From Deltaproteobacteria bacterium (GTDB lineage Bacteria; Desulfobacterota; DSM-4660; Desulfatiglandales; HGW-15): a stretch of DNA of 64,000 nt. Below, one piece after another: positions 662 to 14,036 of this stretch. Below the pieces are notes generated by a model that saw only the letters and a list, made by a program, of their open reading frames with translations, had not been told where the DNA came from and made no database searches. The stretch is taken from assembly GCA_020060215.1 (NCBI GenBank), contig JAGVAP010000009.1, positions 157,492 to 221,491 on the forward strand, read 5' to 3'. A program made the position numbers and the translations under genes. How positions within the stretch are numbered: the first letter of the stretch is position 1; every line of letters starts with the position of its first letter.

Positions 662-831
662 GACTGCTCCTGGCGTAACAGCAATTGTAAAAACAAAGGG
701 TTAATTTAATGAAATGGCAGTGAGGAGTCAACACAGGAAAGAAGGAAGATGGTCCTTGGTCATTTGTTCTTTGTCATTTGTCATCTGGTATTACCCTCGA
801 CCCGCAAACCGCAACTCGCCCCTTTATCCCC

Positions 832-1119
832 GGACACATGGTTTAACACACTGAAATCAGGGGGGGTGGAGTGGCGGCGGTAGGGTTTTTATGTAGTTCC
901 TTTGGGCTCTTAAGGGGCGCGGACGGTGGGTTCTTGAGCAAAACCATTTGTCCAAAATGTGGCGGCCCGGACAGTGCGCGGCAGATCGCGCCATTATTTG
1001 AATGATCGTAAGGATTTGAAAGGCTCGATCCTACATGATAACGGAGGGCTGTTCCCGAAATTCTGGCGGCCATTTGGACAAATGGTTTTGTCTAAACCAG
1101 GTCTCAGGAGGTTTACAAG
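832..1119. repeat. Left-end transposase-binding-like sites
   Basis: Three copies of a GGACAMATGGTTT-type sequence are seen: GGACACATGGTTTAACAC at 832-849 (plus), CAAAACCATTTGTCC at 939-953 (minus), and GGACAAATGGTTTTG at 1076-1090 (plus) followed by TCTAAACC to 1098. A further GGTTTACAAG lies at 1110-1119 and again at 1179-1188. The same core is found in the opposite orientation at the right flank (11985-12028). This matches the layout of multiple MuA-type L and R sites. The 662-1202 interval has no credible gene; 750-785 holds a low-complexity TCATTTGT-type repeat of the kind also found beyond the right end. Confidence 0.5.
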
Positions 1120-1202
1120 ATAACTTTACGGTTTCCGATCCAGCTTCAGCTTTCTATGAGAATCACGCTTAGAGAGTAGGTTTACAAGGGAAGTTAACAA
1201 GA

Positions 1203-1610
1203 TCACTCCAGCTTCTTTTCGAGCTGACGAATCTCTCCTTCGAGCGCTCCAGATCTAGGTCCCTTCAGTCGTTTCGCTTTGGCTACTGCAAGCGCAAAAA
1301 TGTCCTGCAATCCTTCCCGATCCAAGCATCGGAGGATATTCAGTAGAGCGTGCTCTTCCTCCGAGACGGTCCGAGTGAATTCGATCTTCAGCTCGTCACT
1401 CACCTTTACTTCGTCGACAGGTATTCCGAACCGATCCTTGATTGCAAGAAGCAGATGGCGCGATGGTTCTGTTCTACCAGATTCGATATCACCGACGTAT
1501 GATCTGGAAAACCCGATCTCCTTTGCAAAGTTGTCCTGACTTAGTCCAAGTCTTCTTCTTATCTCAGCTACTTGTATCGATTTTTCTTTCATCATATTTT
1601 GGCTTGACAT
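1203..1610 (-). CDS. XRE-family prophage repressor (Mu c-like)
   Basis: This 135-residue protein has an N-terminal helix-turn-helix (about residues 13-68: IRRRLGLSQDNFAKEIGFS, then SYVGDIESGRTEPS). A charged C-terminal tail is likely to mediate oligomerisation. It is transcribed leftward, divergent from the Ner-like gene and the transposase, exactly where the Mu lysogeny repressor sits. The shared intergenic region carries three TGACGT half-sites that overlap the rightward promoter. By analogy it would keep transposase silent in the lysogen. It could start at MMKEKS, a few codons in. The HTH class is clear; the role as immunity repressor is inferred from position. Confidence 0.8.
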   Translation of the reverse strand: MSSQNMMKEKSIQVAEIRRRLGLSQDNFAKEIGFSRSYVGDIESGRTEPSRHLLLAIKDRFGIPVDEVKVSDELKIEFTRTVSEEEHALLNILRCLDREGLQDIFALAVAKAKRLKGPRSGALEGEIRQLEKKLE

Positions 1611-1637
1611 TACGTCATATTTGACGTATGAACGTCA
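1604..1637 (+). promoter_or_regulatory. Rightward early promoter with overlapping TGACGT operators
   Basis: TTGACA at 1604-1609, a 17-bp spacer and TATGAA at 1627-1632 form a good sigma-70 promoter firing toward the Ner-like gene and transposase. Overlapping it is TACGTCA-N4-TGACGTA (1611-1617 and 1622-1628), and the second half-site pairs again with ACGTCA at 1632-1637. This gives three half-sites 10-11 bp apart, as expected for cooperative dimers on one DNA face. Likely ligands are the divergent XRE repressor and/or the Ner-like protein. Confidence 0.7.
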
Positions 1638-1664
1638 GTGACAATGCAAGAAACTGGATAGACC

Positions 1665-1838
1665 ATGAAGATAAAGACGATCAAAAAGAAGTTGATTGAC
1701 CATGATTTAACCATCCCGGCACTGGCCAGGATATTGGATTATTCACCGGAATACACCTGGAGGATCATCAACGGTCATCTGAAGTCCAAGAAAGCAAGTC
1801 AGCGTATCGAAGAGATCCTCAAGGCTAAGAAGAGATGA
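1665..1838 (+). CDS. Small Ner-like DNA-binding protein
   Basis: This is a 57-residue basic protein starting MKIKTIKKKLIDHDLTIPAL and ending EEILKAKKR. The middle (LTIPALARILDYSPEYTWRIINGHLKSKK) reads as a Cro/XRE helix-turn-helix: helix, turn at LDYSPEY, recognition helix WRIINGHLKS. It lies 33 bp downstream of the rightward -10 and before the transposase, the position of ner in Mu, where Ner dampens early and repressor transcription. No strong Shine-Dalgarno is visible. The function is inferred from size, fold and position. Confidence 0.65.
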   Translation: MKIKTIKKKLIDHDLTIPALARILDYSPEYTWRIINGHLKSKKASQRIEEILKAKKR

Positions 1839-1925
1839 CACCGTGTATTTTATTAAACGTCCTGTGTTTTGTCCCTCAATTTTTTACTAGAAACATCTGC
1901 CAATTCTCGGGCAGTGAGATAAGGG

Positions 1926-3803
1926 ATGAACACCACACTAAAGCTTTCTGATGGCCACCTTCACGCGATCATCGAAGCCAGAGATCACCTGCGCCGTGCT
2001 TTGAGCCTGGGTGAACGTGAAGGGAGATCACAAAGCCAGATCATTAGTTCATGGCGAACTGACTTCAACTCCGGTCTCTACCTCTCTCATCTTTCATCGG
2101 TCATAGGGCAGATCAAGAGTGATTCGACTCTTCGAAAATGGCTGAATGCAGCGGATGCCGAGTCCCTGAGGCCACGCTACGGCAACAGGCGCGGCCAGAG
2201 TAAAGCCACGACTGATGAACAAGAGGCGCTTCTCCGGGTTGCTCTTCATCCGAACAGACTTCGGAAATCGCAGGCGGTTCGCCTTGCAAGAATGGCCCTT
2301 CGGTCCAAAGGGGTGCCTTCACCGTCGAGTGATCGAACATTGGTCAGATGGCTGAATGGGTGGATCAAGGCCAATTACGATAAGTGGGTTTTCGCACGCG
2401 AAGGATCGAAGGCGCTGAATGACAAGTGCCTGCCTTTTCTCTGCCGCAATGCCGAGCTGCTGGAGGTTGGCCAGGTCCTTATTGCCGATGGCCATAAACT
2501 CAACTTCCAGATTCTACACCCCTTCACCGGCAAGCCTTGCCGAATGAACATGGTTCTTTGGTATGACTGGGCCAGCCGATGGCCGTGCGGTTTCGAGATC
2601 ATGCCGAACGAAAACGTGCAGGCCGTCGCCAGCAGCCTTCGCAAGGCGATCCTGAACCTGGGGAAGATCCCACAGGTTGCTTACCTGGACAATGGGAAAG
2701 CCTTCAAAGCGAAGATTTTCACAGATGAATCGATTGACTTTGAAGAGGCCGGTTTCTACGGCATGTTCGCCCGGCTGGGCATCGAGACCGTTTTTGCATG
2801 GCCCTACAATGCTCAGAGTAAGCCAGTTGAGCGCTTCTTCGGAACCTTCAGCGAAGTTGAACGCCTGATGCCGACCTTCACCGGCACGTCCATTCAGGAC
2901 AAGCCTGCCCACATGCTGCGAAATGAACAACTTCACAGGGCAGTCCACCTGAAGAAATATAACGGGTGGGTTCCGACAATCGAGGAAGCGAGGGTGATCA
3001 TTGAAGGCTGGTTGGCAGAATACGGACAGCGCCCGCACAGCGGCTTGAAAGGTCTCTGTCCTTTAGATGTTTCTGAATCAGGCAAGGGGCCGGGCGTTGA
3101 TCCGGAATCGCTACGCCATTTGATGATGGCGATGGAAGTTCACACAGTCACTCGCAAAGGCATCAGCTTCATGACGCGTGACTATTACGATCCAGCCTTG
3201 TACGGCCTGAGAAACACTGTTCTTATAAAGTACGACCTGAGTGATCTATCCCAAATCCTGGTTTTCGATGAAACCGGACGAAGGTTCATTTGCAGAGCGG
3301 AGGTCCGCCAGGCGGTCCATCCAATCGCCGCTATTGCCGGTACATCAGATGATCTTGAAGCAGTAAAGGAAGGGATCCGGCTGAAGCGATCGCTGAAGCG
3401 TCAAACCGAAGCGGCAGCCCGCGCTTATGTCATGGATGCTCCCGCCCTGGTCCAGATCCCGGAGGTTACGGGCGGTATCGTTCAAGGCCGGAATGGAAAA
3501 GCGATCAAGGTAATTTCCCTGCCGCAAGGGGAAGCAGAACACATAGAGGCAGAGGCCGCGCGTATGCGCGTGGTGCCGGTGAAACCAAAGGAGCAGCCGA
3601 TTTTTTCAAATGAGGTTGACCGGTACGAATGGTGTTTGAAGCATGAATGTGTCGAGCAGGTATTAGGTCCTGATGACGTGACCTTCATGCGTTATTTCGA
3701 AAAAACGAAGATGTTCACCAGATTCCAAACCAGGTTCGAATTCTTGAGAGAACAATGGACGGCTGAATCTGGAGGGTTGGCAGATGAAAAATATGTTTGC
3801 TGA
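1926..3803 (+). CDS. Mu-type DDE transposase (MuA-like)
   Basis: The 625-residue protein is close to MuA length. An N-terminal DNA-binding region (about 60-150) precedes an RNase H-like integrase core with the catalytic triad visible as D188 (LIADGHKL), D255 (YLDNGKAFK) and E302 (SKPVERFFGTF). An aromatic-rich beta-barrel region follows (about 385-440), then a charged C-terminal tail suited to contact the B ATPase. The start is ATG after AAGG. It overlaps the B gene by 20 bp, so translation is coupled. It would pair the end sites, nick 3' ends and join strands in replicative transposition. The core motifs make the call firm; activity is untested, but no catalytic residue is missing. Confidence 0.93.
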   Translation: MNTTLKLSDGHLHAIIEARDHLRRALSLGEREGRSQSQIISSWRTDFNSGLYLSHLSSVIGQIKSDSTLRKWLNAADAESLRPRYGNRRGQSKATTDEQEALLRVALHPNRLRKSQAVRLARMALRSKGVPSPSSDRTLVRWLNGWIKANYDKWVFAREGSKALNDKCLPFLCRNAELLEVGQVLIADGHKLNFQILHPFTGKPCRMNMVLWYDWASRWPCGFEIMPNENVQAVASSLRKAILNLGKIPQVAYLDNGKAFKAKIFTDESIDFEEAGFYGMFARLGIETVFAWPYNAQSKPVERFFGTFSEVERLMPTFTGTSIQDKPAHMLRNEQLHRAVHLKKYNGWVPTIEEARVIIEGWLAEYGQRPHSGLKGLCPLDVSESGKGPGVDPESLRHLMMAMEVHTVTRKGISFMTRDYYDPALYGLRNTVLIKYDLSDLSQILVFDETGRRFICRAEVRQAVHPIAAIAGTSDDLEAVKEGIRLKRSLKRQTEAAARAYVMDAPALVQIPEVTGGIVQGRNGKAIKVISLPQGEAEHIEAEAARMRVVPVKPKEQPIFSNEVDRYEWCLKHECVEQVLGPDDVTFMRYFEKTKMFTRFQTRFEFLREQWTAESGGLADEKYVC

Positions 3804-4500
3804 AACGTCGAATGTGAAGAGCCTTTATTGCGGAATGGAGTCAGTCAGAAAATCCATTGGAGAATCTGCGCTGGTGGTCGTTCATGGTGAAACGGGCCGG
3901 GGCAAGACAGCCACTTCGATGAAATTTTCTGCCGAAGAGAACTGTGTCTATTGTCGTGTAAAGAAGGGATGGACAGCGCTTTGGATGCTGAGGGATCTTT
4001 CCTTCGAGCTTGGAATGCACTCCATCCCGAAGAGGACTGCAAGTTGTTTCGATGCAGCCGTTAAAGAGATTCGCGATAATCCGCGCCCGGTCTTCATCGA
4101 CGAAGCAGATAAGTTATCAGAGTCGCTTTTTGAGTGGGTCCGCGATCTGGCAGACCTGAGCTATGTTCCATTCATTCTTGTCGGGGAACCAGAGATTCTC
4201 TTCATGATGAAAAAGCAGAGGAGGATCTGGAGCAGGGTCCAACAGGCTATTGAGTTTGGTCCGATCACTCCGCAGGATGTTCTGTTCTTCTCTCAACAGT
4301 CCTGCGAGATCTTTCTGACCGGGGATCAGGCTGCAGCTATTCAGGCGGCAGCCACTGGCGACTTTCGGGCAATCAGGCGCATTCTCTTGAGTGTCGAAAA
4401 CACACTGTCCGCGAACAGGTCCTTCTCGGCAAATTCAGGCGGCAAGGTCACTGACCGGATTGTTGAAACCGCGATCAAGAACGGCATGCATGGGGCGTAA
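3784..4500 (+). CDS. MuB-like AAA+ target-selection ATPase
   Basis: This 238-residue AAA ATPase has Walker A GETGRGKT (residues 35-42) and Walker B PVFIDEAD (102-109), with a sensor-like ILVGEPE downstream. The C-terminal half resembles the MuB/AAA_22 type (ITPQDV, then a helical lid). It begins inside the end of the transposase gene, so both are translated together. In Mu, B binds target DNA, delivers it to the transpososome and gives target immunity. MuB is somewhat longer; this form lacks an obvious N-terminal HTH domain. The family call is firm and the biological role is by synteny. Confidence 0.9.
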   Translation: MKNMFAETSNVKSLYCGMESVRKSIGESALVVVHGETGRGKTATSMKFSAEENCVYCRVKKGWTALWMLRDLSFELGMHSIPKRTASCFDAAVKEIRDNPRPVFIDEADKLSESLFEWVRDLADLSYVPFILVGEPEILFMMKKQRRIWSRVQQAIEFGPITPQDVLFFSQQSCEIFLTGDQAAAIQAAATGDFRAIRRILLSVENTLSANRSFSANSGGKVTDRIVETAIKNGMHGA

Positions 4501-4501
4501 G

Positions 4502-4948
4502 ATGAGCAGGCGACCTAAGACCGGCCTGACTGCGAAATTGCGGGAAGCGGCAAGAGAATTCTCCGGGGTGTTCACTGCCGATCAGCTTGTCTCTGCCCTT
4601 GACATTCGGACCTTCAGCGAGGTGCGAACGATCCATCCTTTGATCTGCAATTTGGTTCGAGGAGAGGAATTCGAGCGAGTGCGGGAAGGCGTCTACCGGC
4701 ACGCTTCAAAGGTTCCACGTACGCGCAAGGTCGATGTGATGTGGCGTCTCTTTCGAGCAAAGAAGCAATTCAAGACCGAGGAGATCGAGCGGTTATCGGG
4801 TGCTGCCTCAAGCACCGTGCGGTTCTGTTGTCGGGATCTTCAGAAAACCGGAATTCTGAGGAAGGTTGGGGCAGGACGGTTTCAGCTTCTGAATGATCCA
4901 GGCCCGGCCACTCCTGATGTTCTCTCGAACAATGGAGGCGTGAGATGA
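4502..4948 (+). CDS. Tandem winged-helix-like phage early protein
   Basis: The start chosen is the ATG at 4502, one base after the ATPase stop; longer upstream starts would overlap that gene deeply. The 148-residue product seems to hold two winged-helix-like units. The first (about 10-60) is AREFSGVFTADQLVSALDI followed by a wing REGVYRHA. The second (about 75-125) is KKQFKTEEIERLSGAASSTVRFCCRDLQKTG followed by GAGRFQLL. It is probably a DNA-binding early regulator. I do not recognise a named family. It overlaps the next gene by 4 bp (ATGA), which supports a real operon gene. Confidence 0.65.
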   Translation: MSRRPKTGLTAKLREAAREFSGVFTADQLVSALDIRTFSEVRTIHPLICNLVRGEEFERVREGVYRHASKVPRTRKVDVMWRLFRAKKQFKTEEIERLSGAASSTVRFCCRDLQKTGILRKVGAGRFQLLNDPGPATPDVLSNNGGVR

Positions 4949-5637
4949 GGCGCGAGAAGTGGGAGAAGTCAATTTACGGTCTCCAGAATAAGACTATCCA
5001 TTCGGCACGCGCGCAGCTTTGCATGGAATTGGACGATTGCCGCGAACTGGCCAGGTCCATAAACGGAACGCCTTCTCTCAGCAGCCTCAGCCTGGTTGAG
5101 AGATCTGAATTGATCGAGATCCTGAAGGAGAAAGGCGCGAGGGTCCATAACCCGAAGATACCCGGCCTTCCTGCCACTTCACAGGGCAGCCGCAAGAGTC
5201 ATTGTGCCATCTTCCCCTTTGACAATGCCGTCCCGCGTCGTGACGGCACTGAAGGGGTTTCTGCCAGCAATGACAACGTGCGGTGCCCTGTGAAGTGGCA
5301 GGAAGCTGAGAAGAAGAAGGATGCCTACGCAAACAGGCTGGAAGAATGGAATTCAAAATTTCCGAATCACAGGCCTGGATTCGCCAGCAATAAGGAACTC
5401 GCTTGGATCCAGACGTTGTGGGATCTGAACTTTGCCGATGGCCGGGCCGGATCCGGGAGCGGAGGCCTGCGGGGGTTCGTCTTTCGGCAAACACAGAATC
5501 TGCCAGAAGGGCCGGTCTCTGATCTGGCCTTTCTGAGGGTGGAGCATGTACGGGCGGTTCTCACACCCTTGAAGGCGAAAGCATCGGCTGCCATGAAACG
5601 TAACTCCAATCGCCCCCTCTGGAGAATGCCAGCATGA
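4945..5637 (+). CDS. GemA-like (DUF1018, Mu gp16) regulator with an inserted hairpin segment
   Basis: The 230-residue product has two halves of a GemA/DUF1018 protein. The N-terminal half is KTIHSARAQLCMELDDCREL and LVERSELIEILKEKG. The C-terminal half is ELAWIQTLWDLNFADGRAG, GLRGFVFRQTQNLPEG, then LRVEHVRAVLTPLKA. Family members usually keep these halves close together. Here about 75 residues separate them, and about 46 of those codons fall in a 139-bp inverted-repeat segment (5167-5305) that stays in frame. In Mu, GemA modulates host gene expression and supercoiling. The family call is by recalled pattern. The hairpin is treated as a separate repeat feature and may alter or disable the protein. 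Confidence 0.7.
   Translation: MRREKWEKSIYGLQNKTIHSARAQLCMELDDCRELARSINGTPSLSSLSLVERSELIEILKEKGARVHNPKIPGLPATSQGSRKSHCAIFPFDNAVPRRDGTEGVSASNDNVRCPVKWQEAEKKKDAYANRLEEWNSKFPNHRPGFASNKELAWIQTLWDLNFADGRAGSGSGGLRGFVFRQTQNLPEGPVSDLAFLRVEHVRAVLTPLKAKASAAMKRNSNRPLWRMPA
5167..5305. repeat. Perfect 22-bp inverted repeat forming a 139-bp palindromic element
   Basis: The arms at 5167-5188 and 5284-5305 are exact reverse complements over 22 bp (left arm begins CTTCCTGCCACTTC). The 95-bp interior continues as an imperfect inverted repeat (GTCATTG paired with CAATGAC, CCCCTT with AAGGGG) and is capped by TGCCGTC / GACGGCA near 5227-5249. It sits inside the gemA-like frame without breaking it. It looks like a MITE or hairpin insertion, or possibly an invertible segment. 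Confidence 0.85.
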
Positions 5638-5969
5638 AGCCGAAGCGTGAAATGCGACCAGGGCTCACACTCAGTCAGAATTTTCGTCTTGCGATGACTG
5701 AGCAGAAACTGACCTTCAGAGATCTTGCGAGAAAGTCTCATGTTGCGATTGACACCGCTTACCGCCTGGTCGAGCGTACACCCGATCTTGTCCGGGATCC
5801 TCTCATAAAGGTAGGGAAGACTCTTGGTTTCACCGAGCGGTCGATCCGTGAAAAGGCGAGACAGGAGCGGCTTTCCGAGAGAAAGACCTTTTCGAGGAAA
5901 GAGCAGTTCTACCAGATCGTTTCCGACCTGGTGAACTTCTTTGAAGCTGACCACGAAAGGAGGAGGTGA
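5634..5969 (+). CDS. Phage helix-turn-helix protein
   Basis: The 111-residue protein overlaps the end of the gemA-like gene by 4 bp. Residues 13-75 (LSQNFRLAMTEQKLTFRDLARKSHVAIDTAYRLVERTP, then a helix) have the arrangement of a lambda-repressor/XRE helix-turn-helix. A basic linker and a C-terminal helix (QFYQIVSDLVNFFEADHERRR) follow. It probably regulates middle genes of the element. It is not recognisably Mor or C, which have a different fold, so the element's middle/late activator is not identified with confidence. Confidence 0.6.
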   Translation: MKPKREMRPGLTLSQNFRLAMTEQKLTFRDLARKSHVAIDTAYRLVERTPDLVRDPLIKVGKTLGFTERSIREKARQERLSERKTFSRKEQFYQIVSDLVNFFEADHERRR

Positions 5970-6022
5970 ATCAGTAGCGGCAAACGGAGGAGTTATGTCA
6001 ACGCTTTCGAAGGGAGTCAGAA

Positions 6023-6400
6023 ATGCATCCAATACTTTCAAATGACCGAAGTGAAGACTTGATGAAGTGGGCAAAGATTCTGAAGGCTGTTGGTTATGTG
6101 CTGTCTGTCATGGGCTCCAGAAATGACCAAGATCAGGCCTTCGAGTTTCATGGTGAACAAATCGGATGGATCATCGAGGACTATGCCGAAGCGATATATC
6201 AGACGGCAGAAGAAGCGCGCCTGCCCATTCAGGCCTTTTTCGAGGCCAAAACAAGTCAGGAAAATGCAAGAGCCTCTGTCACCCGGCAAAGTGAATCAGA
6301 GGCTCAAGAGCAGGCTCCCGAAGGAACCCGAGAAGAAGAAACTTTATCAGAGACTGTGGCCGGTTGCAAGTGTGGTGACAAGACACATCGGATGAATTGA
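6023..6400 (+). CDS. Hypothetical phage early protein
   Basis: This 125-residue acidic protein has a helical N-terminal half (LMKWAKILKAVGYVLSVMGS, then FEFHGEQIGWIIEDYAEAIYQTAEEA) and a low-complexity Gln/Glu-rich tail ending CKCGDKTHRMN. No family is recognised. Its start follows AAGGGAG. A 16-codon ORF at 5995-6045 with a better GGAGG site overlaps it and could act as a leader peptide coupling its translation. It lies in the early operon, last before a strongly structured 120-bp spacer. Confidence 0.5.
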   Translation: MHPILSNDRSEDLMKWAKILKAVGYVLSVMGSRNDQDQAFEFHGEQIGWIIEDYAEAIYQTAEEARLPIQAFFEAKTSQENARASVTRQSESEAQEQAPEGTREEETLSETVAGCKCGDKTHRMN

Positions 6401-6406
6401 GTTCTA

Positions 6407-6520
6407 TTGCCCTGGCTACTCCGGCCAGAGGAAAAGGGGCACGCTCCCCCCTGCCAGGGCAAACCAAATGAGCGGCAACCTATGAGCGGGGTTGCGTGTG
6501 CGATGCATGCAACCCCTTTT
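6407..6520 (+). terminator. Double hairpin with terminator-like second stem
   Basis: The first stem is TTGCCCTGGC (6407-6416) with GCCAGGGCAA (6453-6462), a perfect 10-bp match over a 36-nt loop that holds smaller stems. The second stem is GGGGTTGC (6488-6495) with GCAACCCC (6509-6516), followed by TTTT. The second has the form of an intrinsic terminator and ends just before the metallopeptidase gene, so it may separate the early operon from the genes after it or attenuate transcription. Confidence 0.5.
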
Positions 6521-6532
6521 CTATTTGTGCAG

Positions 6533-6928
6533 ATGGATCGAGAACTGACAAAGCGCGAACGTGAAAGAGTTCTAGGTCTGCTACTGGAGATGAGACTGGC
6601 TAGTCCGCCTTCCTCCTCTATCGCTGAAGTATTCAAAAACCTAGTCCAGTTCGCAAGTGACAAGGGGTGCAGACTCTATTGGGCAGACGATCTTCTCAAA
6701 TCATGGGGTTGTTCCGGATGTTTTTCTCGCAGCTTAAACGCGATACTGCTTCGGAGACAGGCACCCCATGACGTTGCGGTCACACTCGCCCACGAAGTTG
6801 GGCACCTCATTGGCTGTTTAACAGACAAAACTGAGGCCGGAAACAGGGCATCTGATGAGGCCTTTGCAGATAGGTTGGAGAAAGTCATTCTTGATATCTT
6901 TTACACACAGGAAAGGAGGAACTTTTAA
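6533..6928 (+). CDS. ImmA/IrrE-like zinc metallopeptidase
   Basis: The start is taken as ATG 6533, after the terminator-like hairpin; an upstream in-frame extension would run through that hairpin. About 131 residues follow. The sequence LAHEVGHLIG gives the HEXXH zinc site. A downstream acidic helix (ASDEAFADRLEK) supplies the likely third ligand, as in the ImmA/IrrE (DUF955) family. ImmA of ICEBs1 cleaves the ImmR repressor to trigger mobilisation. Here it could act on the XRE repressor at 1203-1610, but that is inference. The Shine-Dalgarno is weak, and the stop overlaps the next start by one base (TAATG). Confidence 0.7.
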   Translation: MDRELTKRERERVLGLLLEMRLASPPSSSIAEVFKNLVQFASDKGCRLYWADDLLKSWGCSGCFSRSLNAILLRRQAPHDVAVTLAHEVGHLIGCLTDKTEAGNRASDEAFADRLEKVILDIFYTQERRNF

Positions 6929-7614
6929 TGAACATGCAGGAGACAATTACCAAGTTGAAAGAGATGATCTTCGTGAAAAAGGGCACGGGGCAGGAGTGCC
7001 AGAAAGAGGAAGAACTCCTGAAGAGTCTCGAAGATCAGGAAGCGGAGGCCTTGAGGCTTGCCGATGAAAACCTGAAGGCTCTTAATGCCAAAAAAGCGGA
7101 GCTGGATGCATCTTGGGACAAGGTTGGAGAGATCAAAAAGAAGTTCTCCAAAGTGGTGACCCAGTACCAGGGCCTGCTTTTGGATCTCTTCCGGGAAGAG
7201 CGAAACAGGGAGGCCCTTTTCGAACATCTCAGAGCGCTTCGGATCGCGGGCGGTATGGAGCTGGGTTCCTTCACTCCTCCCGGCCGGTCCATCTTCATCG
7301 GAAGCACCCGCACGCAATGGGTTGAAGATGAGATCTTCCCTTTGTCGGAGGATTTCAGAATGAGGCTCATTGCCGACAACCGAGAGTATTACGCGGAACG
7401 GCGAAAGACCAAGAAGCAGAGGGTGCGGCCTCCGGTTGCGGACGGGGTGAAGTTCATCCCTGAACAGGTGCAACATATGATTCAAGCCGGTTTGGACGTG
7501 CCTGCCTGGATGCGGGAGAGGCTGCATAAGTGGGAGGTAGCACGGAAGAAGGAGATAAAAGAGAACCCTGTCGAAAGCTTCGACGTGAGGGGTTCTCTCG
7601 ACTTCATGATTTGA
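6928..7614 (+). CDS. Coiled-coil phage protein of unknown function
   Basis: The 228-residue protein follows a strong AGGAGG site within the previous gene. Residues 1-85 are a long Glu/Lys/Leu-rich coiled coil. A mixed domain (about 86-150) and a basic C-terminal region (KKQRVRPPVADGVKF, then VQHMIQAGLDVPAWMRERLHKWE) follow, the latter perhaps nucleic-acid binding. No named family is recognised. Its position among accessory genes between early and structural genes, coupled to the metallopeptidase, is all that context offers. Confidence 0.55.
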   Translation: MNMQETITKLKEMIFVKKGTGQECQKEEELLKSLEDQEAEALRLADENLKALNAKKAELDASWDKVGEIKKKFSKVVTQYQGLLLDLFREERNREALFEHLRALRIAGGMELGSFTPPGRSIFIGSTRTQWVEDEIFPLSEDFRMRLIADNREYYAERRKTKKQRVRPPVADGVKFIPEQVQHMIQAGLDVPAWMRERLHKWEVARKKEIKENPVESFDVRGSLDFMI

Positions 7615-7712
7615 CCTTGAAGCGAGCCGCCGAACTGCGCGTCCACGGCGGACGAAGTAGGCTTAGAGTCTCTGATTTACAAATTCGGATTTCACAGAAA
7701 GGAAGGTGCGCA

Positions 7713-7916
7713 ATGTTCCGAGGAAGAATGCAGGTGAAGGGAAAACCGGCCATGAAGAAGATCGTTATTGCGATGATCGAGAAAGACCTAAGTTCCGACG
7801 ATGTCGGCAGGTTGGCGGGGATCTCCCCGGCCCTGGTGGATCAGATGATTTCCGGACAGATCAATGATCCTGAGTGGGAAGGGAAGATAGCGGCAGCGCT
7901 TGGAATCAGCCTCTGA
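7713..7916 (+). CDS. Small helix-turn-helix protein
   Basis: The start chosen is ATG 7713, because GGAAGG lies just upstream. The frame extends further upstream but overlaps the previous gene. The roughly 67-residue product has KKIVIAMIEKDLSSDDVGRLAGISPALVDQMISG, a compact Cro-like helix-turn-helix, ending with AAALGISL as in XRE proteins. An internal start at 7752 is possible. It is probably a DNA-binding regulator or transcription antagonist of the element. The 95 bp before it contain nothing recognisable. Confidence 0.5.
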   Translation: MFRGRMQVKGKPAMKKIVIAMIEKDLSSDDVGRLAGISPALVDQMISGQINDPEWEGKIAAALGISL

Positions 7917-7977
7917 GAGCGAGCATCGTGTTCTTAGTATAACTGAATTGAGCCTCAAGCCGCACGGAGTCGTTTAG

Positions 7978-8685
7978 GTGGACCAGGGCGGGCAGCTCCA
8001 GGGAATAGTTGACTTGCCGGGGTTCTTTCACTGCGAAAGGGCCAACTGCGATCTGAAGATTTCAGCATGCATCGGAAGGCAGGAGGCAAATGCACAGAGG
8101 CATCCTTTCGAGCCGATACCCTATGCGATTTGCCAGGACTGCCAGAAAGGAAAAGGCTACCTGGTACAAGCGGAACCATTCCCCGAAGGCACCAAACCGA
8201 AGCGGGGAAAGGGTCAGAGGAAATCCGATTGCGACCTATACGGAAAGTGCCTTGATTTTGCGGCCAAGAGGGATTGGAAAAGCTGGAACTGCTACGGCTG
8301 CCCGGTGATCGAGGGGGTGAAAGCGATGCCTACAGAAGATGGAATTGCGAAGGTTGTCAACACCCGGATCTGCGAGGATTGTAAATCCAAGCCCACGATC
8401 CATTCGAATCATCCTCTGTGCGCTTCTTGCATGGCAAAGCGCTCGAACAGCAGCCCGAACAGGACGCAAAAGGCGCAGGAGAGGCGAAAACGGAAACACG
8501 CGACCGAGGATAAGCGTAAGGTCGAGATCTCGCGCCCACGGCCCGATTTGAAAGTCCTTATTTCTTTTTCCCAGCATCCGGAAATCCTCGATGCTCTAAA
8601 GGCAGCGGCAGAGCGGGAAATCCGGCCTTTGGATCTTCAGGTGATCTACCTTCTGAAAAAGGGGCTCGAAGAAGTTCAAGGTTAG
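7978..8685 (+). CDS. Cysteine-rich zinc-ribbon protein with ribbon-helix-helix-like tail
   Basis: The GTG start follows GGAG. The 235-residue product has many paired cysteines: CERANCDLKISAC (about 19-31), ICQDCQ (about 51), CDLYGKC, NCYGC (about 104) and a zinc ribbon CEDCKS...CASC (about 132-151). A Lys/Arg-rich linker leads to a C-terminal domain (KVLISFSQHPEILDALKAAA, then LDLQVIYLLKKGLEE) with the strand-helix-helix pattern of RHH DNA-binding proteins. It may be a zinc-dependent regulator. I know no named family with this arrangement, so function is unassigned. Confidence 0.6.
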   Translation: MDQGGQLQGIVDLPGFFHCERANCDLKISACIGRQEANAQRHPFEPIPYAICQDCQKGKGYLVQAEPFPEGTKPKRGKGQRKSDCDLYGKCLDFAAKRDWKSWNCYGCPVIEGVKAMPTEDGIAKVVNTRICEDCKSKPTIHSNHPLCASCMAKRSNSSPNRTQKAQERRKRKHATEDKRKVEISRPRPDLKVLISFSQHPEILDALKAAAEREIRPLDLQVIYLLKKGLEEVQG

Positions 8686-8696
8686 GGGGAAATCCC

Positions 8697-8912
8697 ATGC
8701 TGCTATTTCTAATTCTCATAATTGGTTGGTGCATCCTGTTGGTTATCTGCTGGCCTGCTGCGGTAGTCGTTGGGCTTCTGTTCTTGGTTTTAGGAATGGT
8801 TTATTTGGTGATCCGCCTGACCGGCAAGACGATTGGCGGAGTGTTTGCTTTAGTGCGTGCCGCATTTCGGCATGAAAGGAGACCGGCAAATGGAAGTGGT
8901 CCTCGAACCTGA
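8697..8912 (+). CDS. Small two-helix membrane protein
   Basis: The 71-residue protein is preceded by AGGGGGAA. Two strongly hydrophobic segments (residues 1-20, and 22-42 with WPAAVVVGLLFLVLGMVYLVI) are followed by a basic cytoplasmic tail. It sits where Mu-like phages sometimes carry holin or superinfection genes. Nothing in the sequence distinguishes these, and no endolysin is nearby, so a holin role is not claimed. It overlaps the next gene by 23 bp. Confidence 0.5.
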   Translation: MLLFLILIIGWCILLVICWPAAVVVGLLFLVLGMVYLVIRLTGKTIGGVFALVRAAFRHERRPANGSGPRT

Positions 8913-9117
8913 TCAAGTAAAGCGGGAAAATGTTCCTGATCCTTTGGCGGAGTGTCTGGCCAGAGTCAGTGCTAAGGCCGTGCTGCTTGGTGGCGCTTCA
9001 ATTGCGAAAAATTGCGGGATGTGCGGTGAAGAGAAGGAGGTGCACGCATGGGGTCGTTTATCGAGATCGTGGATGAACAGGAACGGATCGAGCATTGCTT
9101 CGGAGATTCGAGATTGA
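8890..9117 (+). CDS. Hypothetical phage protein
   Basis: The 75-codon frame begins at ATG 8890 with a good AGGAG site 8 bases upstream. The product MEVVLEPDQVKRENVPDPL... contains one CGMCGE pair and has no recognised family. It overlaps the next gene by 70 bp, longer than other overlaps in the element, so its 3' end may be a passive extension. The ribosome site is the main argument that it is real. Confidence 0.4.
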   Translation: MEVVLEPDQVKRENVPDPLAECLARVSAKAVLLGGASIAKNCGMCGEEKEVHAWGRLSRSWMNRNGSSIASEIRD

Positions 9118-9437
9118 TTCTGAGGCGGCTTACGCCCGAAACCCACGAGGAGATCCGTAGAAGACATACAAAGCGATACCGCACCAAATCCGGGGAGTGG
9201 GCAAAGGAACTCGATGAGAACGCTGTTCTTCTGGACTGCATTGATTACGTGATCGTCGGTTGGAGCGGTGTCAAGCATCCTGTCACAAAGCAGGATGTTC
9301 CTTGCACCCCGGAGAACAAGAAGAGAATTCCCATTCAGGCAATGGGAGAGGTCATGGACCTGGTATCCGAATTGAACCAGGTCGCGCAATCAGAAGCCGA
9401 GAACGAATTAAAAAACTCGAAAGGTTCCTCCGTGTAA
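9048..9437 (+). CDS. Phage tail assembly chaperone (short form)
   Basis: The start has AAGGAGG 6 bases upstream. The 129-residue product includes LRRLTPETHEEIRRRH and DCIDYVIVGWSGVKH, then PCTPENKKRIP, a pattern seen in phage tail-assembly chaperones and tail-tube neighbours. It lies directly before the tape measure gene. Its last codons hold a slippery A AAA AAC with 0-frame codons AAA AAC, and the -1 frame continues for about 106 codons, the arrangement of gpG/gpGT (lambda) and Mu gp41. Chaperones of this type coat the tape measure and recruit tube subunits. Synteny plus the recoding site support the call more than similarity does. Confidence 0.75.
   Translation: MGSFIEIVDEQERIEHCFGDSRLILRRLTPETHEEIRRRHTKRYRTKSGEWAKELDENAVLLDCIDYVIVGWSGVKHPVTKQDVPCTPENKKRIPIQAMGEVMDLVSELNQVAQSEAENELKNSKGSSV
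9410..9416 (+). other. Programmed -1 ribosomal frameshift site (A AAA AAC)
   Basis: In the 0 frame the codons read TTA AAA AAC, giving the classic heptamer A AAA AAC. After slippage the -1 frame reads LERFLRVKADF without a stop to 9736. The 0 frame stops 21 bases after the heptamer, at 9437. Bases from about 9450 can pair (AGGCCTGG with CCAGGCC) to form a possible downstream stimulator. Confidence 0.8.
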
Positions 9438-9736
9438 AAGCTGACTTTCCAGGCCTGGACTGTGAGAGCTGCGGGGACCAGGCCGAACCGGGGGAACCTG
9501 AGCCCGATTGTGCAGCTTGCCCTTTGCCGGAATTGCTTCCGGAAAATTTGGAAGCCCTACAGATTCATGAAGTGTTGAACGTCGGAACAGAAGCCGGGTT
9601 GGAGCAAGAGATGATTCAGATCACCATGCCGAAGATGACGAAGGAGAAGGCAAAGCTTTTGGTCATGAAACTTGCTCTGATCCGCAAGGTCACTTCGGCC
9701 ATGAAGGGAGAAGCAGAAGATGGCAGCCGGAATTGA
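9410..9736 (+). CDS. Tail assembly chaperone frameshift extension (GT-like domain)
   Basis: This frame has no good start of its own near its conserved part and is joined to the preceding gene by -1 slippage at 9410-9416. The predicted fusion is about 229 residues (123 from the first frame, 106 from this one). The extension has a cysteine-bearing N-terminal part (DCESCGDQAEPGEPEPDCAACP) and a helical tail (TKEKAKLLVMKLALIRKVTSAM). It overlaps the tape measure start by 17 bp. The T domain of such proteins binds the tape measure. Confidence 0.7.
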   Translation, partial: KKLERFLRVKADFPGLDCESCGDQAEPGEPEPDCAACPLPELLPENLEALQIHEVLNVGTEAGLEQEMIQITMPKMTKEKAKLLVMKLALIRKVTSAMKGEAEDGSRN

Positions 9737-10598
9737 ATTGGAAATGACGGTGACTGACAAAGGAACTGCGGAGGTGAAAGCAATCACGCAGAAGGCCCTT
9801 TCCTCTTTTGACAGTCTGAGAAACCATGCCATATCGGTCAGCCACTCTATCGGCAACGCATTTTCCGGAGCCATGTCAAAATTGAAGGAGTTCGGCAGCA
9901 TGGTATTCTCTTTGCGGGGACTCATGGTCGCGCTTTCTGGAGCCGGGGGCATTCTTCTCGTTTCGCGAGCAGTTGAAATAATCGGAGAGAGATCCGAAAC
10001 GCTGAAACAGAGGTTCGATGCCGTCAAGGAGGCTGCTGGAGGCTTCATAGATCGGCTCATCGATTACGTGGGGAAAAGCCCTGAGCTGTTGAGTTTCTTG
10101 GACCGCATGAAAGAGAAGATCATCGATTGGACACAGAGAATGCCCGAGCTGGAGGGAACCATCCGGGGTTTCTTCGATGGGGTTTCTGCATTCATGCAGG
10201 AGGCGCTTCCGAAAATAACCGCTTTCGTCAGCAACTTCCTCGGGGTTATGAAGGAACTCTATGACCGGATCAAGTCGATGTGGCAGACCATCAAGGACAT
10301 TGCCGCTGGAGCGAAAAGCGTCATGAGTGCCCTCGGTCGAAGTATACCTTCCGAAATGTACGGGCCAGATGGTCAGATACTTCAACCGGAGCCTGCTCCA
10401 GGCACCAGCAGCTCCCCAGCTCCTGCTCCTGCTTACGGCAGCGAAGCTTATTGGCAGCAGCAGGTGAGCAGTCCAATCACCGTGAATTTCAACGGACAGA
10501 TGAGCCGGAGCGATGTCACGAACATCATCAGCGAAATGGAGCGCCGTGGGGATCGCGGTGGGGGTGGCGAGTACGTGTACGGAGTCGCTTCCTATTGA
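9720..10598 (+). CDS. Short phage tail tape measure protein
   Basis: The 292-residue product is preceded by GGGAGAAG. The N-terminus (IELEMTVTDKGTAEVKAITQKALSSFDSLRNHAISVSHSI) is typical of tape measure proteins, as is the hydrophobic stretch MVALSGAGGILLVSRAVEII (about 65-84). Long amphipathic helices follow (to about 200), then a Pro/Ala-rich linker and the C-terminal TVNFNGQMSRSDVTNIISEMERR. Both ends look intact, so it is either a naturally short ruler (predicted tail only about 40 nm at roughly 1.5 angstrom per residue) or an in-frame internal deletion. Tape measures of Mu-like phages are usually several times longer. Confidence 0.7.
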   Translation: MAAGIELEMTVTDKGTAEVKAITQKALSSFDSLRNHAISVSHSIGNAFSGAMSKLKEFGSMVFSLRGLMVALSGAGGILLVSRAVEIIGERSETLKQRFDAVKEAAGGFIDRLIDYVGKSPELLSFLDRMKEKIIDWTQRMPELEGTIRGFFDGVSAFMQEALPKITAFVSNFLGVMKELYDRIKSMWQTIKDIAAGAKSVMSALGRSIPSEMYGPDGQILQPEPAPGTSSSPAPAPAYGSEAYWQQQVSSPITVNFNGQMSRSDVTNIISEMERRGDRGGGGEYVYGVASY

Positions 10599-10628
10599 CG
10601 CCTGATTTTCAGTCACGAGGTTCCGCTG

Positions 10629-11915
10629 ATGAAGTTCTTCTCAAAGCATGAATGGTCAAAGCGGCTCGCTCAATTTCTGACAAAGCGCGGGGGGGTGCAG
10701 ATTCCTCTAGGCGCGGGTGGTGCCGTGCCGGGCGGGTTCTCTGCATGGTCAAACCTCGGCAGCGCTTCTAAACAGATTGATGCCTATAGAGGGCACGTCT
10801 ACAAGTGCGTGACGCTGATCGCGAACCGCGCCATATCGATTCCCCTGCGGCTCTACAAGCAAGAGGAGAAGACGGTTAAGGAGATCACCAGGCACCCCTT
10901 TCTAGATCTGCTGTACAGGCCAAATCAGACCATGAGCGGCGCGGATCTGAAGTTCTTGACGTTCATCCATCGAGACCTGACCGGCAAGGCTTTTTGGTAC
11001 GTTCCGCGGAATGCGCTGGGCAGGCCCGCCGAGATCTGGCCGTTGAACCCGGCAGACTTTCGGAGGTTCGTTTTCAGCCCAAACGGAAGAAGCCTTGTCG
11101 GCTATGAGTTCGGATCGGGGAGCGGGGAGGCCGTAACCTATGCGCCCGATGAGATCATTTACTTCCGGTATCCCCACCCGAGGCACATGCTGGAGGGGGC
11201 AAGCCCGATTCAGGCAATGGCCTATGAGTATGACATCGACCTGGCCATCAAGGTGTACGAACGCGCCTTCTTCCAGAACAGCGCCCGGCCAGATGTGGTG
11301 CTTGAAACGGATCAGTCCATACAAAAAGCCGATGCCACGCGACTGCTGCTTCAGTGGAACGAAGCCCACCAGGGCGCGGACAAGCGATGGAACACGGCAA
11401 TCCTGAGCCACGGCCTGAAGGCGAAGGTGATCCAGGCGAACTCGGCCGATCTGGAGTTTGCGACCCTTGCGGCGATGGCGAAGCAGGATATTTTGGAGGC
11501 CTATAACGTGCCTCCTGGCAAGCTGGGCAGCGTTGAAGACGTGAATAGGTCCAGTGATCTCGGGGTGGACATAACTTTCAATTCTGAGTGCATCACGCCC
11601 CGCCTGGTCAGCTACCAGGACCAGGTAAGCCGGGGTGTCCTGTCTGTCTACGGCAGCGGCCTTTATGCCTCCCATGATAACTGCATCCCGAGGGATCTGG
11701 AACACGATCTTCGGAGGCGGGAATCCGACCTTCGGAGCAAGGTAACAACAGTCAATGAGGAGCGGCAAAGGGACGGGCTTTCCCCTATGCCCTGGGGTGA
11801 AGTGCCTTGGGTCAGCATAGCAGAAAGACAGTATGGCCAGGTGGAGACTGTACAGCTTCAGAGGAGGAGCATCAGGACCCGAAAAAGGCGGTTTTCGGCC
11901 ATTTTCGCCGGTTAA
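10629..11915 (+). CDS. HK97-type phage portal protein
   Basis: The 428-residue protein matches the HK97 portal family (PF04860). It has the segment AYRGHVYKCVTLIANRAISIPLRLYK (about 47-72), HPFLDLLYRPNQTMSG, the DEIIYFRYPHP and LEGASPIQA motifs, and the MAKQDILEAYNVPPGKLG stem-clip region (about 278-295). Portals form the dodecameric DNA gate of the capsid. A portal following the tape measure, with no terminase or capsid gene, is out of normal order and suggests deletion or rearrangement. It is the last gene before the right-end sites, and its C-terminal 25 residues are Arg-rich and may be altered by the junction. Confidence 0.88.
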   Translation: MKFFSKHEWSKRLAQFLTKRGGVQIPLGAGGAVPGGFSAWSNLGSASKQIDAYRGHVYKCVTLIANRAISIPLRLYKQEEKTVKEITRHPFLDLLYRPNQTMSGADLKFLTFIHRDLTGKAFWYVPRNALGRPAEIWPLNPADFRRFVFSPNGRSLVGYEFGSGSGEAVTYAPDEIIYFRYPHPRHMLEGASPIQAMAYEYDIDLAIKVYERAFFQNSARPDVVLETDQSIQKADATRLLLQWNEAHQGADKRWNTAILSHGLKAKVIQANSADLEFATLAAMAKQDILEAYNVPPGKLGSVEDVNRSSDLGVDITFNSECITPRLVSYQDQVSRGVLSVYGSGLYASHDNCIPRDLEHDLRRRESDLRSKVTTVNEERQRDGLSPMPWGEVPWVSIAERQYGQVETVQLQRRSIRTRKRRFSAIFAG

Positions 11916-11984
11916 ATACAGCTACACCCAAAACGCCTGTCTTCGACTCAGAAGGGCAGAGTCGGACAGGTGAGGTGTCTCTAC

Positions 11985-12034
11985 GGTTTACAAAACCATC
12001 TGTCCTGATTTCTGAAACCATCTGCCCCTCTACA
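11985..12034 (-). repeat. Right-end transposase-binding-like sites
   Basis: Two sites point inward on the minus strand: 11985-12005 (reverse complement GGACAGATGGTTTTGTAAAC) and 12014-12028 (GGGGCAGATGGTTTC). They match the left-end sites in opposite orientation. A CA at 12033-12034 is a possible terminal dinucleotide. Beyond it, 12073-12105 is a CCAATGACCAATAACCAATG low-complexity repeat in host DNA. The 11916-12117 stretch holds no gene. Confidence 0.5.
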
Positions 12035-12117
12035 CCCTTGCACAATCAACCGGCGTTCGAAATCCGCAGTGGACCAATGACCAATAACCAATGAGCCATG
12101 ACCAATCCCCTATGGCC

Positions 12118-12146
12118 TTGAAATTGCTAGAGTGGATGAGTATATT
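12118..12146 (+). promoter_or_regulatory. Sigma-70 promoter of the ClpX-like/heme operon
   Basis: TTGAAA (12118-12123), a 17-bp spacer and TATATT (12141-12146) lie 112 bp upstream of the ClpX-like start and just outside the right end of the Mu-like element. This is one of the best promoter matches in the window. It would drive the ClpX-like gene and, given an 11-bp gap, ahbC. Confidence 0.6.
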
Positions 12147-12257
12147 GTTCTATCAGGCAGCCCGGGGGTTTGGCCCCTGATTCGTTACCGAATGCGGACG
12201 GCCTGGTCGCAGCGGCCCCGGGGAACGGGGCGAAAACAAGGCGATCAAGAGGTGATT

Positions 12258-14036
12258 ATGACATACGAAGGTTTTGAAAACGACGGGGGTGAGAAGCTTC
12301 CCAATCAGAAAGAGCTCGAAAAGGAGTTGAGCGAATATCTTTCGAAGAAGTACGGGAACCGGATCAAGATCATTTCCCCCTTCCTTTTTCCCAAGGCCGA
12401 AGAATCCCAGAGCGACGTCGGCAAAGGGTCTGAAAAAGAGGGGAAGGGTCCTGTCTTCGATATGCTTCCAGAAGAACTCGAGCACTTCCTGGACAGCTTC
12501 ATCGTGAAGCAGAATCAGGCGAAATCCGTCCTGGCCACCAAGATGTGCACGCATTTCAATCGAATCAAATATCTCAAGCAGCACGGCGGGAAGAGGAAGA
12601 CCGCCGGTGTAGGCATGATCAAGAACAATGTGCTCATGATCGGGCCTACCGGCGTCGGCAAGACCTATATGATCAAGCTCGTCGCACAGAAGCTCGGGGT
12701 CCCTTTCGTCAAGGGGGACGCCACCAAGTTCAGCGAAACAGGGTATGTGGGGGGCGATGTGGAGGACCTCGTGCGCGACCTGGTCTATGAAGCCGGGGAT
12801 GACATCGAGCTTGCCGAAAACGGGATCATCTATATCGATGAGGTGGACAAGATAGCCTCCGCCAGGAACATCATCGGGCACGACGTCTCCAGGACGGGGG
12901 TCCAGCGCGCTCTCCTCAAGCCCATGGAGGAGACCGAGGTCGATATGAAGGTGCCCCATGACGCCGTGTCCCAGATCCAGGCGATCGAGCACTTCAGGCG
13001 CACGGGCAAACGCGACAAGAGGATGGTGAACACCAGGAACATCCTGTTCATCATGAGCGGTGCGTTCGGGGACCTGGCCGAGATCATCAAGAAGCGGCTC
13101 CAGAAACAGGGAATCGGGTTCGAAGCCAACGTGAGCGCCACCGAGGTGCCCTGGGAGATCCTGAAGGAGGTGAGCGCCCAGGACCTGATCGACTTCGGGT
13201 TTGAAACGGAGTTTGTGGGCCGCCTGCCGGTGATCGTGGTCTTTGACGAGCTCAGCAAGGAAGACCTGGCCGAGATCCTCAAGAACCCGAACAACCCGAT
13301 CATCCTCAGCAAGAGGCAGGACTTCAAGGCGTACGGGATCGACATCAAGTTCGAGGACGAGGCCCTGGAGAAGATCGCGGAGATGGCCGCGTCCGAGAAG
13401 ACGGGCGCAAGAGGGCTGGTCAGCGCCATCGAGCGGGTCCTCATCCCCTTTGAAAAGCGGATGCCTTCCACGGACATGAAGAGACTGGTGGTGACGCGGG
13501 AGGTCGTGACCGATCCGGAGGCCGAGCTCGTTTCCCTCGAGGAGGGCTATGACACCCAGGAGCGGGCGGAGAGTTTCGAAAGGGCTGCATTCAACGAGAA
13601 GCAGAGGGTGGTGAGGTTCATCTCCGAGCGTGAGAAGGATTTCCGTGAAAAGTCGGAGCTGGACCTCTATGATGAAAGGGTGGACCTGATTGCAGAGATC
13701 TACGTCCGGATGACCTCGGATCTCAATACGGTCTTCGAAGATTTTGCCAACATGTACCAGCAGATCAGGGTGCAGGAAGTGACCCTGTCCGGCGATCTCG
13801 ACACCACCGTGAGCTTTGACGAAAGGGCGATCGACGAGATCGTCCGAAAGGCCATGGATACGGGGCAGCAGGCCGGGGCCCTGGCCTTCCAGCTCGTCAA
13901 GAGGCTGGAATACGGGCTGAAGCTGGTGAAGGAGCGCTCGGGCATCGAAAGCTTCGTGATCACCCGGGAGGCGGTTACAGACATGGAAAGGTATATCAAC
14001 GGACTCGTCAAGAAGTTCTACAGGCAGATGAGCTGA
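12258..14036 (+). CDS. ClpX-like AAA+ unfoldase lacking the zinc domain
   Basis: The start ATG 12258 follows AGGTG; upstream frame extension is not protein-like. The 592-residue product has Walker A GPTGVGKT (129-136), the ClpX-type segment ETGYVGGDVEDLVRDLV (about 160-176) and Walker B IIYIDEVDK (190-198). Sensor and arginine-finger regions and the KTGARGLVSAIERVL C-subdomain follow. ClpX is about 420 residues with an N-terminal four-cysteine zinc domain. Here that domain is replaced by a charged 70-residue leader, and about 150 extra C-terminal residues follow the ATPase. It may unfold substrates with or without ClpP; no clpP is nearby. Proximity to ahbC suggests, without proving, a link to heme enzyme turnover. 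Confidence 0.85.
   Translation: MTYEGFENDGGEKLPNQKELEKELSEYLSKKYGNRIKIISPFLFPKAEESQSDVGKGSEKEGKGPVFDMLPEELEHFLDSFIVKQNQAKSVLATKMCTHFNRIKYLKQHGGKRKTAGVGMIKNNVLMIGPTGVGKTYMIKLVAQKLGVPFVKGDATKFSETGYVGGDVEDLVRDLVYEAGDDIELAENGIIYIDEVDKIASARNIIGHDVSRTGVQRALLKPMEETEVDMKVPHDAVSQIQAIEHFRRTGKRDKRMVNTRNILFIMSGAFGDLAEIIKKRLQKQGIGFEANVSATEVPWEILKEVSAQDLIDFGFETEFVGRLPVIVVFDELSKEDLAEILKNPNNPIILSKRQDFKAYGIDIKFEDEALEKIAEMAASEKTGARGLVSAIERVLIPFEKRMPSTDMKRLVVTREVVTDPEAELVSLEEGYDTQERAESFERAAFNEKQRVVRFISEREKDFREKSELDLYDERVDLIAEIYVRMTSDLNTVFEDFANMYQQIRVQEVTLSGDLDTTVSFDERAIDEIVRKAMDTGQQAGALAFQLVKRLEYGLKLVKERSGIESFVITREAVTDMERYINGLVKKFYRQMS

Follow-up and report, generated by a model that had tools for sequence, protein, structure and literature searches.

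Engineered mini-Mu elements carry the ends of phage Mu and little or no late region, and the phage satellites known to us are integrase- or plasmid-based. Among natural elements, the TA-TA transposable prophages of Leptospira are given as 38 to 40 kb long with 6-bp repeats (PMC8705779), and defective prophages in general are named as possible proto-hitchers in another account (PMC11389934). No account of Mu-based satellites or of natural mini-Mu families was found in the available sections of the open-licence literature, including PMC11389934, PMC8705779, and PMC539331. Here we describe an 11.2-kb Mu-like element in a genome of the Desulfobacterota (Deltaproteobacteria bacterium, contig JAGVAP010000009.1). 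The whole stretch of DNA that was analyzed, 64,000 nucleotides long, is called the window, and positions are given within it.

The reading that we favor, with a probability of about 0.68, is that the element is a natural mini-Mu whose lysogeny switch, A/B module for transposition, and two ends were kept and whose late region was nearly all lost or rearranged. Judged from its sequence, the element is probably capable of transposition and incomplete as a virion, its mobility being deduced from its ends and from A and B. Once the repressor was lifted, A and B of this copy would become active and would move the element by Mu-type transposition. The element would be unable to build particles and could be packaged by a full-length Mu-like phage growing in its host cell. 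Helper-dependent spread is plausible, and both packaging by a helper and any part that the portal and tail pieces might play in it are speculative.

Ends, genes, and integrity of the element

The element occupies positions 825 to 12034 (11,210 bp) and is bordered outside both ends by a 5-bp target duplication, CCCTT, at 820 to 824 and 12035 to 12039. A previous sequence-only reading, which lacked this duplication, had started the element at 832; the duplication moves the start to 825. The left end begins with TATCCCCGGACACATGGTTT, and the left terminus (825 to 844, plus strand) includes A-site L1 (832 to 844). The right end, read inward, is TGTAGAGGGGCAGATGGTTT, and the right terminus (12015 to 12034, minus strand), which ends in CTACA, includes A-site R1. 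Repeat and motif scans placed three A-site repeats at the left (832, 941 inverted, and 1076) and two at the right (11993 and 12015), the latter spaced by 22 bp. The left sites L2 (939 to 956, minus strand) and L3 (1073 to 1090, plus strand) form a perfect 18-bp inverted repeat, and R2 spans 11993 to 12005 (minus strand). The A-site motif GGACAnATGGTTT occurs with no or one mismatch at 832, 941(−), 1076, 11993(−), and 12015(−), and at two further places in the 64 kb, each with two mismatches. The ends had a combined score of 23, a value reached by 0 of 2,000 shuffles in which the dinucleotides of both flanking regions were kept (maximum, 19). In its terminal A-site repeats, its inverted termini, and its 5-bp duplication, the element agrees with a Mu-like element.

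The left terminus starts with TA. The idea that this is a mutated TG that killed the element was rejected, since TA also starts the left ends of relatives (G014, G020, L004, L086, and L088, with TG in G013 and G016, all by eye) and is found at each end of the short elements L284 and L290 described below. An extra A-site-like repeat was observed within the early region of several relatives (L090:11322, L086:8815, L004:14322, L085:7407, and L083:6648), upstream of the GemA-like gene in both relatives checked (L083 and L085); none was found in the early region of the window element at up to two mismatches.

The genes begin with a helix-turn-helix repressor on the minus strand (1203 to 1610; phrog_8, E = 7e-13), followed by a likely operator region with a ACGTCATATTTGACGT palindrome, recognized by eye (1611 to 1664). 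All further genes lie on the plus strand. A Ner-like regulator (1665 to 1838; phrog_1468, E = 2e-8) precedes A, a Mu-type DDE transposase of 625 amino acids (1926 to 3803; phrog_310, E = 1.3e-91; PF09299, 3.4e-15), and B, the transposition ATPase or DNA transposition protein (3784 to 4500; phrog_296, E = 9e-39). Residues D188, D255, and E302 of A fall in columns that are invariant across 17 aligned sequences, window A included, and by eye would form the DDE triad; B appears, also by eye, to carry Walker motifs. An N-terminal region of about 80 amino acids, present in 13 of the 17 A sequences, is missing from window A and likewise from its relative P0002.

Downstream lie the early genes: g5, regulator-like (4499 to 4948; phrog_2030, E = 7e-8); a GemA-like gene (4945 to 5637; phrog_286; PF06252, 7e-6, 27.4 bits against a cut-off of 27); the open reading frame (ORF) g7 (5634 to 5969); g8 (6023 to 6400), for which searches and a profile found relatives in other short elements; a metalloprotease-like gene (6407 to 6928; phrog_87, E = 2e-6); and the ORF g10 (6928 to 7614). 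They are followed by g11, a small ORF with no family match (7680 to 7916), g12, whose cysteine-rich product is related to proteins of both short elements and phages (7978 to 8685), and g13, a small ORF of membrane type by eye (8697 to 8912). The structural set comprises a tail assembly chaperone-like gene with a weak match (9048 to 9437; phrog_389/313, E = 0.005), an overlapping second chaperone frame assigned by position and overlap only, with no family match (9437 to 9736), a short tape-measure-like gene of 292 amino acids with a modest match (9720 to 10598; phrog_8462, E = 6e-5), and an HK97-type portal of 428 amino acids (10629 to 11915; PF04860, E = 2e-61), which stops 119 bp short of the right end.

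Coding sequence makes up 91% of the element (10,211 of 11,210 bp), and no stop or frameshift was seen across its listed genes. The sequence-only reading had described the repressor, operator, Ner, A, B, and end-site repeats as intact and A and B as free of stops and frameshifts, which is borne out by the family matches, the invariant triad, and the motif scan, and for the operator by eye. It had also reduced the structural set to a tail chaperone, a short tape measure, and a portal, and this holds at the match strengths given above. Family searches with the element proteins turned up no match to a terminase, a capsid, a prohead protease, or a lysis protein. The element has both the A and B of a Mu-like element and falls short of a complete Mu-like phage. 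A tblastn comparison of the element with ORFs from seven phage stretches, of which two are nearly identical, gave matches to A, B, g5, g12, the portal, and a portion of the tape measure, together with antisense ORFs mirroring A, B, and the portal; this comparison revealed no further phage remnants.

Outside the element, at 12132 to 14036, lies a gene for a ClpX-like ATPase of 634 amino acids, followed downstream by the heme genes ahbC (14048 to 15274) and ahbD (16650 to 17741). A Lon-like protein of 1,194 amino acids is encoded at 37480 to 41064; both it and the ClpX-like ATPase score below the curated cut-offs.

Other short Mu-like elements and a possible satellite explanation

The gene order of the element was sought in other genomes, as had been proposed from the sequence alone. 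These searches yielded no second copy of its architecture, and five more short Mu-like elements were recovered in Desulfobacterota, 8.2 to 12.7 kb long, one of them incomplete. The element of a Desulfobacula sp. (L012) measures 8,190 bp, has the duplication CGAAT, and encodes a repressor, a Ner-like match, A, B, GemA, g8, a Mu-type protease domain (PF10123, covering positions 1 to 186 of 330), an unknown gene, and Mor. That of another Desulfobacula sp. (L078) measures 12,713 bp, has the duplication GATTG, and contains Mor and DUF3164, with no structural match and no g8. An AbiTii defense gene lies within its left end (4801 to 5694).

Two further elements, L284 (3590 to 12953; 9,364 bp; duplication TTGGG) and L290 (4607 to 13353; 8,747 bp; duplication TATGT), come from sister genomes, where each precedes mraZ on its upstream side, and TA stands at both ends of each. 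They were inserted independently, since their insertion points are about 11 bp apart, their duplications differ, and the site is uninterrupted in L295 and, by BLAST, in L293. For L284 and L290, it is thus shown that short Mu-like elements devoid of assembly genes move, with most of their genes kept open. The proximity of the two insertions suggests a target preference. The fifth element, L286, has the same gene order, with its right end at about 7487 and its left end off the contig, so that this type occurs in more than one genome.

The scan for ends and duplication covered 164 loci, among which were the window, a join of L002 with L191, and the L078 contig in a further copy. The positive control scored 40, the window 36, L012 36, L078 34, and the next locus 32. 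Shifted-duplication controls scored up to 35, so that the score alone is no proof for L012 or L078. L012 was accepted because an 18-bp motif is exactly common to its L2, L3, and R2, and L078 was accepted as a candidate element from site matches judged by eye; the lower rows of the end scans look like chance. At L257 (3747 to 13676), a possible further short element in which Mor is followed by other genes, no ends were found. L284 and L286 came from a g8 search of 395 genomes of the phylum, and L290 from an A search of five genomes of its class, two of which matched; with routes differing from that of L012 and L078, these finds give no share of short elements among Mu-like loci.

These elements bear on a second explanation, in which the element is a transposable-phage satellite: selected, dependent on a helper, traveling in the particles of full-length Mu-like phages, and keeping one to a few structural genes with which it would direct or impair the assembly of its helper. 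The explanation overlaps the mini-Mu reading, and the odds of the two are not exclusive; we consider it tentative and rather unlikely. In its favor, short forms recur. A FastTree phylogeny of 174 A frames, rooted at the midpoint and containing duplicate copies for L012, L078, and L284, puts the six short elements in four places: the window, L012, L078, and L284 with L286 and L290 (support, 1.0). The four separate places indicate that short forms probably arose several times. Element sizes of 25 to 39% of a 32.9-kb full-length relative also favor this explanation, and the window element itself is short, has its own regulation, and lacks a full virion set, as satellites do. Against it stands the lack of any evidence of a helper, packaging site, particle, or induction.

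The distribution of g8 also favors a satellite. Four of the six short elements have it (the window, L012, L284, and L286), on three of the branches that short elements occupy. When the frames of 337 sequences were searched with a g8 profile, no further A locus gave a match at E ≤ 0.001, apart from additional copies of those same places; the profile was built from these same four finds and many of the other loci have short flanks, both of which count against the argument. Two long frames in L267 and L268 came next at 0.002, and none was found in viral contigs. Given these profile matches, the view of g8 as an ordinary early gene of Mu-like phages is unsupported so far, and g8 may be a marker of short elements. 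Its absence from L078, which also lacks a structural match, and its shortening to 76 amino acids in L290 from 187 in L284 speak against a satellite.

The capsid-assembly genes differ from element to element, which also speaks for a satellite: a capsid-like gene in L284, L290, and L286, a prohead protease domain in L012, and portal and tail-type genes in the window. In L284, L286, and L012, the gene concerned lies downstream of g8, among the early genes. The capsid-like protein (392 to 393 amino acids) is the sole structural match seen in its three elements. In L284 it matches phrog_29592, of unknown function (2e-52), and the head families phrog_133 (4e-33), phrog_4523 (7e-31), and phrog_371 (1e-8). 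It is 41% identical over 387 amino acids to the C-terminal half of a 795-amino-acid ORF in the full-length G377 element, 31% identical to a Mae-JY22 (Microcystis phage) hypothetical protein, and 25% identical to annotated capsid-protease fusions of Rhodobacter phages. Matches occurred in 13 of 395 genomes, 3 being these standalone frames (397 to 416 amino acids) and 10 being weaker, in frames of 349 to 819 amino acids; the alignment scan of viral contigs gave no relative. The AlphaFold model was too poor to use (mean predicted local distance difference test score, 33).

Between L284 and L290, the capsid-like gene is 93% identical, with a synonymous divergence (dS) of 0.24 and a ratio of nonsynonymous to synonymous divergence (dN/dS) of 0.158. 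This low ratio of about 0.16, together with the independent insertions, fits a selected satellite. The dN/dS values of the ten element genes compared, g8 not among them, ranged from 0.14 to 0.67, in a comparison made without a significance test. The host genes mraZ, rsmH, and ftsI have dS values of 0.05 to 0.07, A has 1.78, B has 1.38, and the other eight element genes compared have 0.2 to 0.5. The values of A and B, far above those of the other element genes, indicate that the transposition genes were probably exchanged.

A broader proposal treats the short Mu-like elements found in Desulfobacterota as transposable-phage satellites of several origins with parts such as g8 in common, which would use A/B transposition within a genome and the particles of full-length Mu-like phages between cells, many with one or a few capsid-assembly genes among their early genes to redirect or sabotage the helper, and with the window element as a portal/tape-measure type. 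We regard this as doubtful and largely speculative.

Full-length relatives and the origin of the late genes

Comparison with full-length relatives, also proposed from the sequence alone, yielded a prophage of 32,870 bp (L002) with the duplication TTCAT and the same end geometry as the window element. Its A is 58% identical to window A, and the A proteins of L002/G016 and G014 span 58 to 60%. In the tree, window A falls in a clade of full-length Desulfobacterota relatives (G001, G014, G016, L003, L004, L014, L082, and L084). The nearest A relatives are P0002 (67% identity) and P0043 (72% identity over a coverage of 71%). The genome-contig scan covered the best 80 of 234 relatives and the viral-contig alignment scan the best 80 of 204.

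The portal lacks a part, the MuF half, that its long relatives have. Of its 56 relatives, 35 have at least 621 amino acids, and 28, including 8 of the 10 best, carry both MuF (PF04233) and portal labels. The window portal ends at about the point where MuF starts in relatives, as does P0121, which is known from a 1.5-kb contig. Portal matches at 1e-10 occurred in 21 of the 395 genomes, the nine best within frames of 491 to 1,020 amino acids. Single-protein scans of viral contigs found no relatives of the portal or the tape measure. The tape measure matched only itself among 1,885 candidates within the search length limits and gave only weak matches among phage records, where the tail chaperone had none. 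A distant tblastn match (22% over 232 positions) linked the tape measure to a 446-amino-acid ORF of L194.

The late gene order of the window is reversed relative to its relatives, with the chaperone and tape measure before the portal. In L194, some 8 kb separate the portal from the matching 446-amino-acid ORF downstream of it; G016 has a portal by match and, by eye, a 617-amino-acid tape-measure-type ORF downstream of it; G377 likewise has, by eye, a tape-measure-type ORF downstream of its portal; in G014 the portal was not identified. A single deletion from this order cannot place the tape measure before the portal, which calls either for at least two events or for an ancestor whose genes were ordered differently. 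In Leptospira transposable prophages, the position of the head block is variable (PMC8705779).

The sequence-only reading had offered a satellite or a recent internal deletion and held that a close relative with the same genes plus a head/lysis module at the junction would reveal a private deletion. The first alternative gains from the wider class of short elements and the second from the signs of loss in this copy, although one deletion is insufficient unless the ancestral order was a different one. Such a relative is approached only in part by L193, where B (by match), a relative of g12, and a head block of TerS, TerL, portal-MuF, protease, and capsid follow one another; its portal is 52 to 54% identical to that of the window, and its contig starts inside B, with A not seen. 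For the portal, tape measure, and chaperone, an origin as leftovers or recombined pieces of a full-length Mu-like phage is most likely, and a role as tools against or for a helper is less likely. Portal and protease without the domains of their long relatives, as expected of leftovers, and a late set found in no second genome weaken the satellite explanation further.

The same observations could instead describe a plain defective prophage, immobile after several deletions and a rearrangement in one lineage, with A and B still open since the events were recent. Defective prophages are common, and a portal without its MuF half, a tape measure with distant matches only, an order unlike that of relatives, and the lack of a sister copy all fit. 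The absence of stops and frameshifts from every listed gene, an end score above the maximum of the shuffles, and the mobility of other short elements (L284/L290) argue against this explanation, which we judge unlikely. An island kept by the host, for instance to exclude superinfecting Mu-like phages through dominant-negative capsid, portal, or protease pieces or through cargo defense genes, would agree with the AbiTii gene inside the L078 ends, the low dN/dS of the capsid-like gene, and the dominant-negative shape that the partial portal and protease may have, and is improbable given that the L284/L290 type is mobile and that the three window proteins tried matched no defense family.

Several points weigh against the natural mini-Mu reading. 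The A proteins of L284/L290 are only about 31% identical to window A over 285 amino acids, which makes the step from their mobility to that of the window element indirect. Clean gene boundaries and the high coding fraction are tidier than random decay would be expected to leave. The architecture is known from one copy in the searches made, the contigs of P0002 and P0043 lying outside the scans. Finally, the window portal is possibly not truncated, because relatives of 405 to 416 amino acids without MuF exist.

Comparison with known systems

The element shares its A/B type and early genes with the full-length Mu-like phages of Desulfobacterota (L002/G016, G014, and G377), and with L002 also the end layout and 5-bp duplication. 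Those phages are at least 33 kb long and have head and tail genes, identified by match for the portal-MuF of L002/G016 and a capsid-type ORF of G377 and otherwise by position or eye, whereas the window element has 11.2 kb and lacks most of them. The Leptospira TA-TA prophages are similar in the variable position of their head blocks and in their TA terminal dinucleotides, which L284 and L290 have at each end and the window element has at its left end (825); the elements described here are short and have 5-bp repeats, in contrast to the 38 to 40 kb and 6-bp repeats of those prophages.

If a helper packaged such elements by the headful, a particle of about 33 kb would carry at least about 20 kb of flanking host DNA with each element of 8 to 13 kb, and natural mini-Mu elements would then be powerful vehicles for host genes among sulfate-reducing bacteria. 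Even without a helper, L284 and L290 show that a Mu-type transposition module can persist and move after the loss of assembly genes. Unlike engineered mini-Mu, the window element is natural and has its own repressor, an early operon, and a few structural genes. It resembles phage satellites (PICI, cf-PICI, P4, and PLE) in being small, in its phage-type regulation, and in its incomplete structural set. Those satellites use a site-specific integrase and the window element would use a DDE transposase, and a Mu-based kind of satellite would be new.

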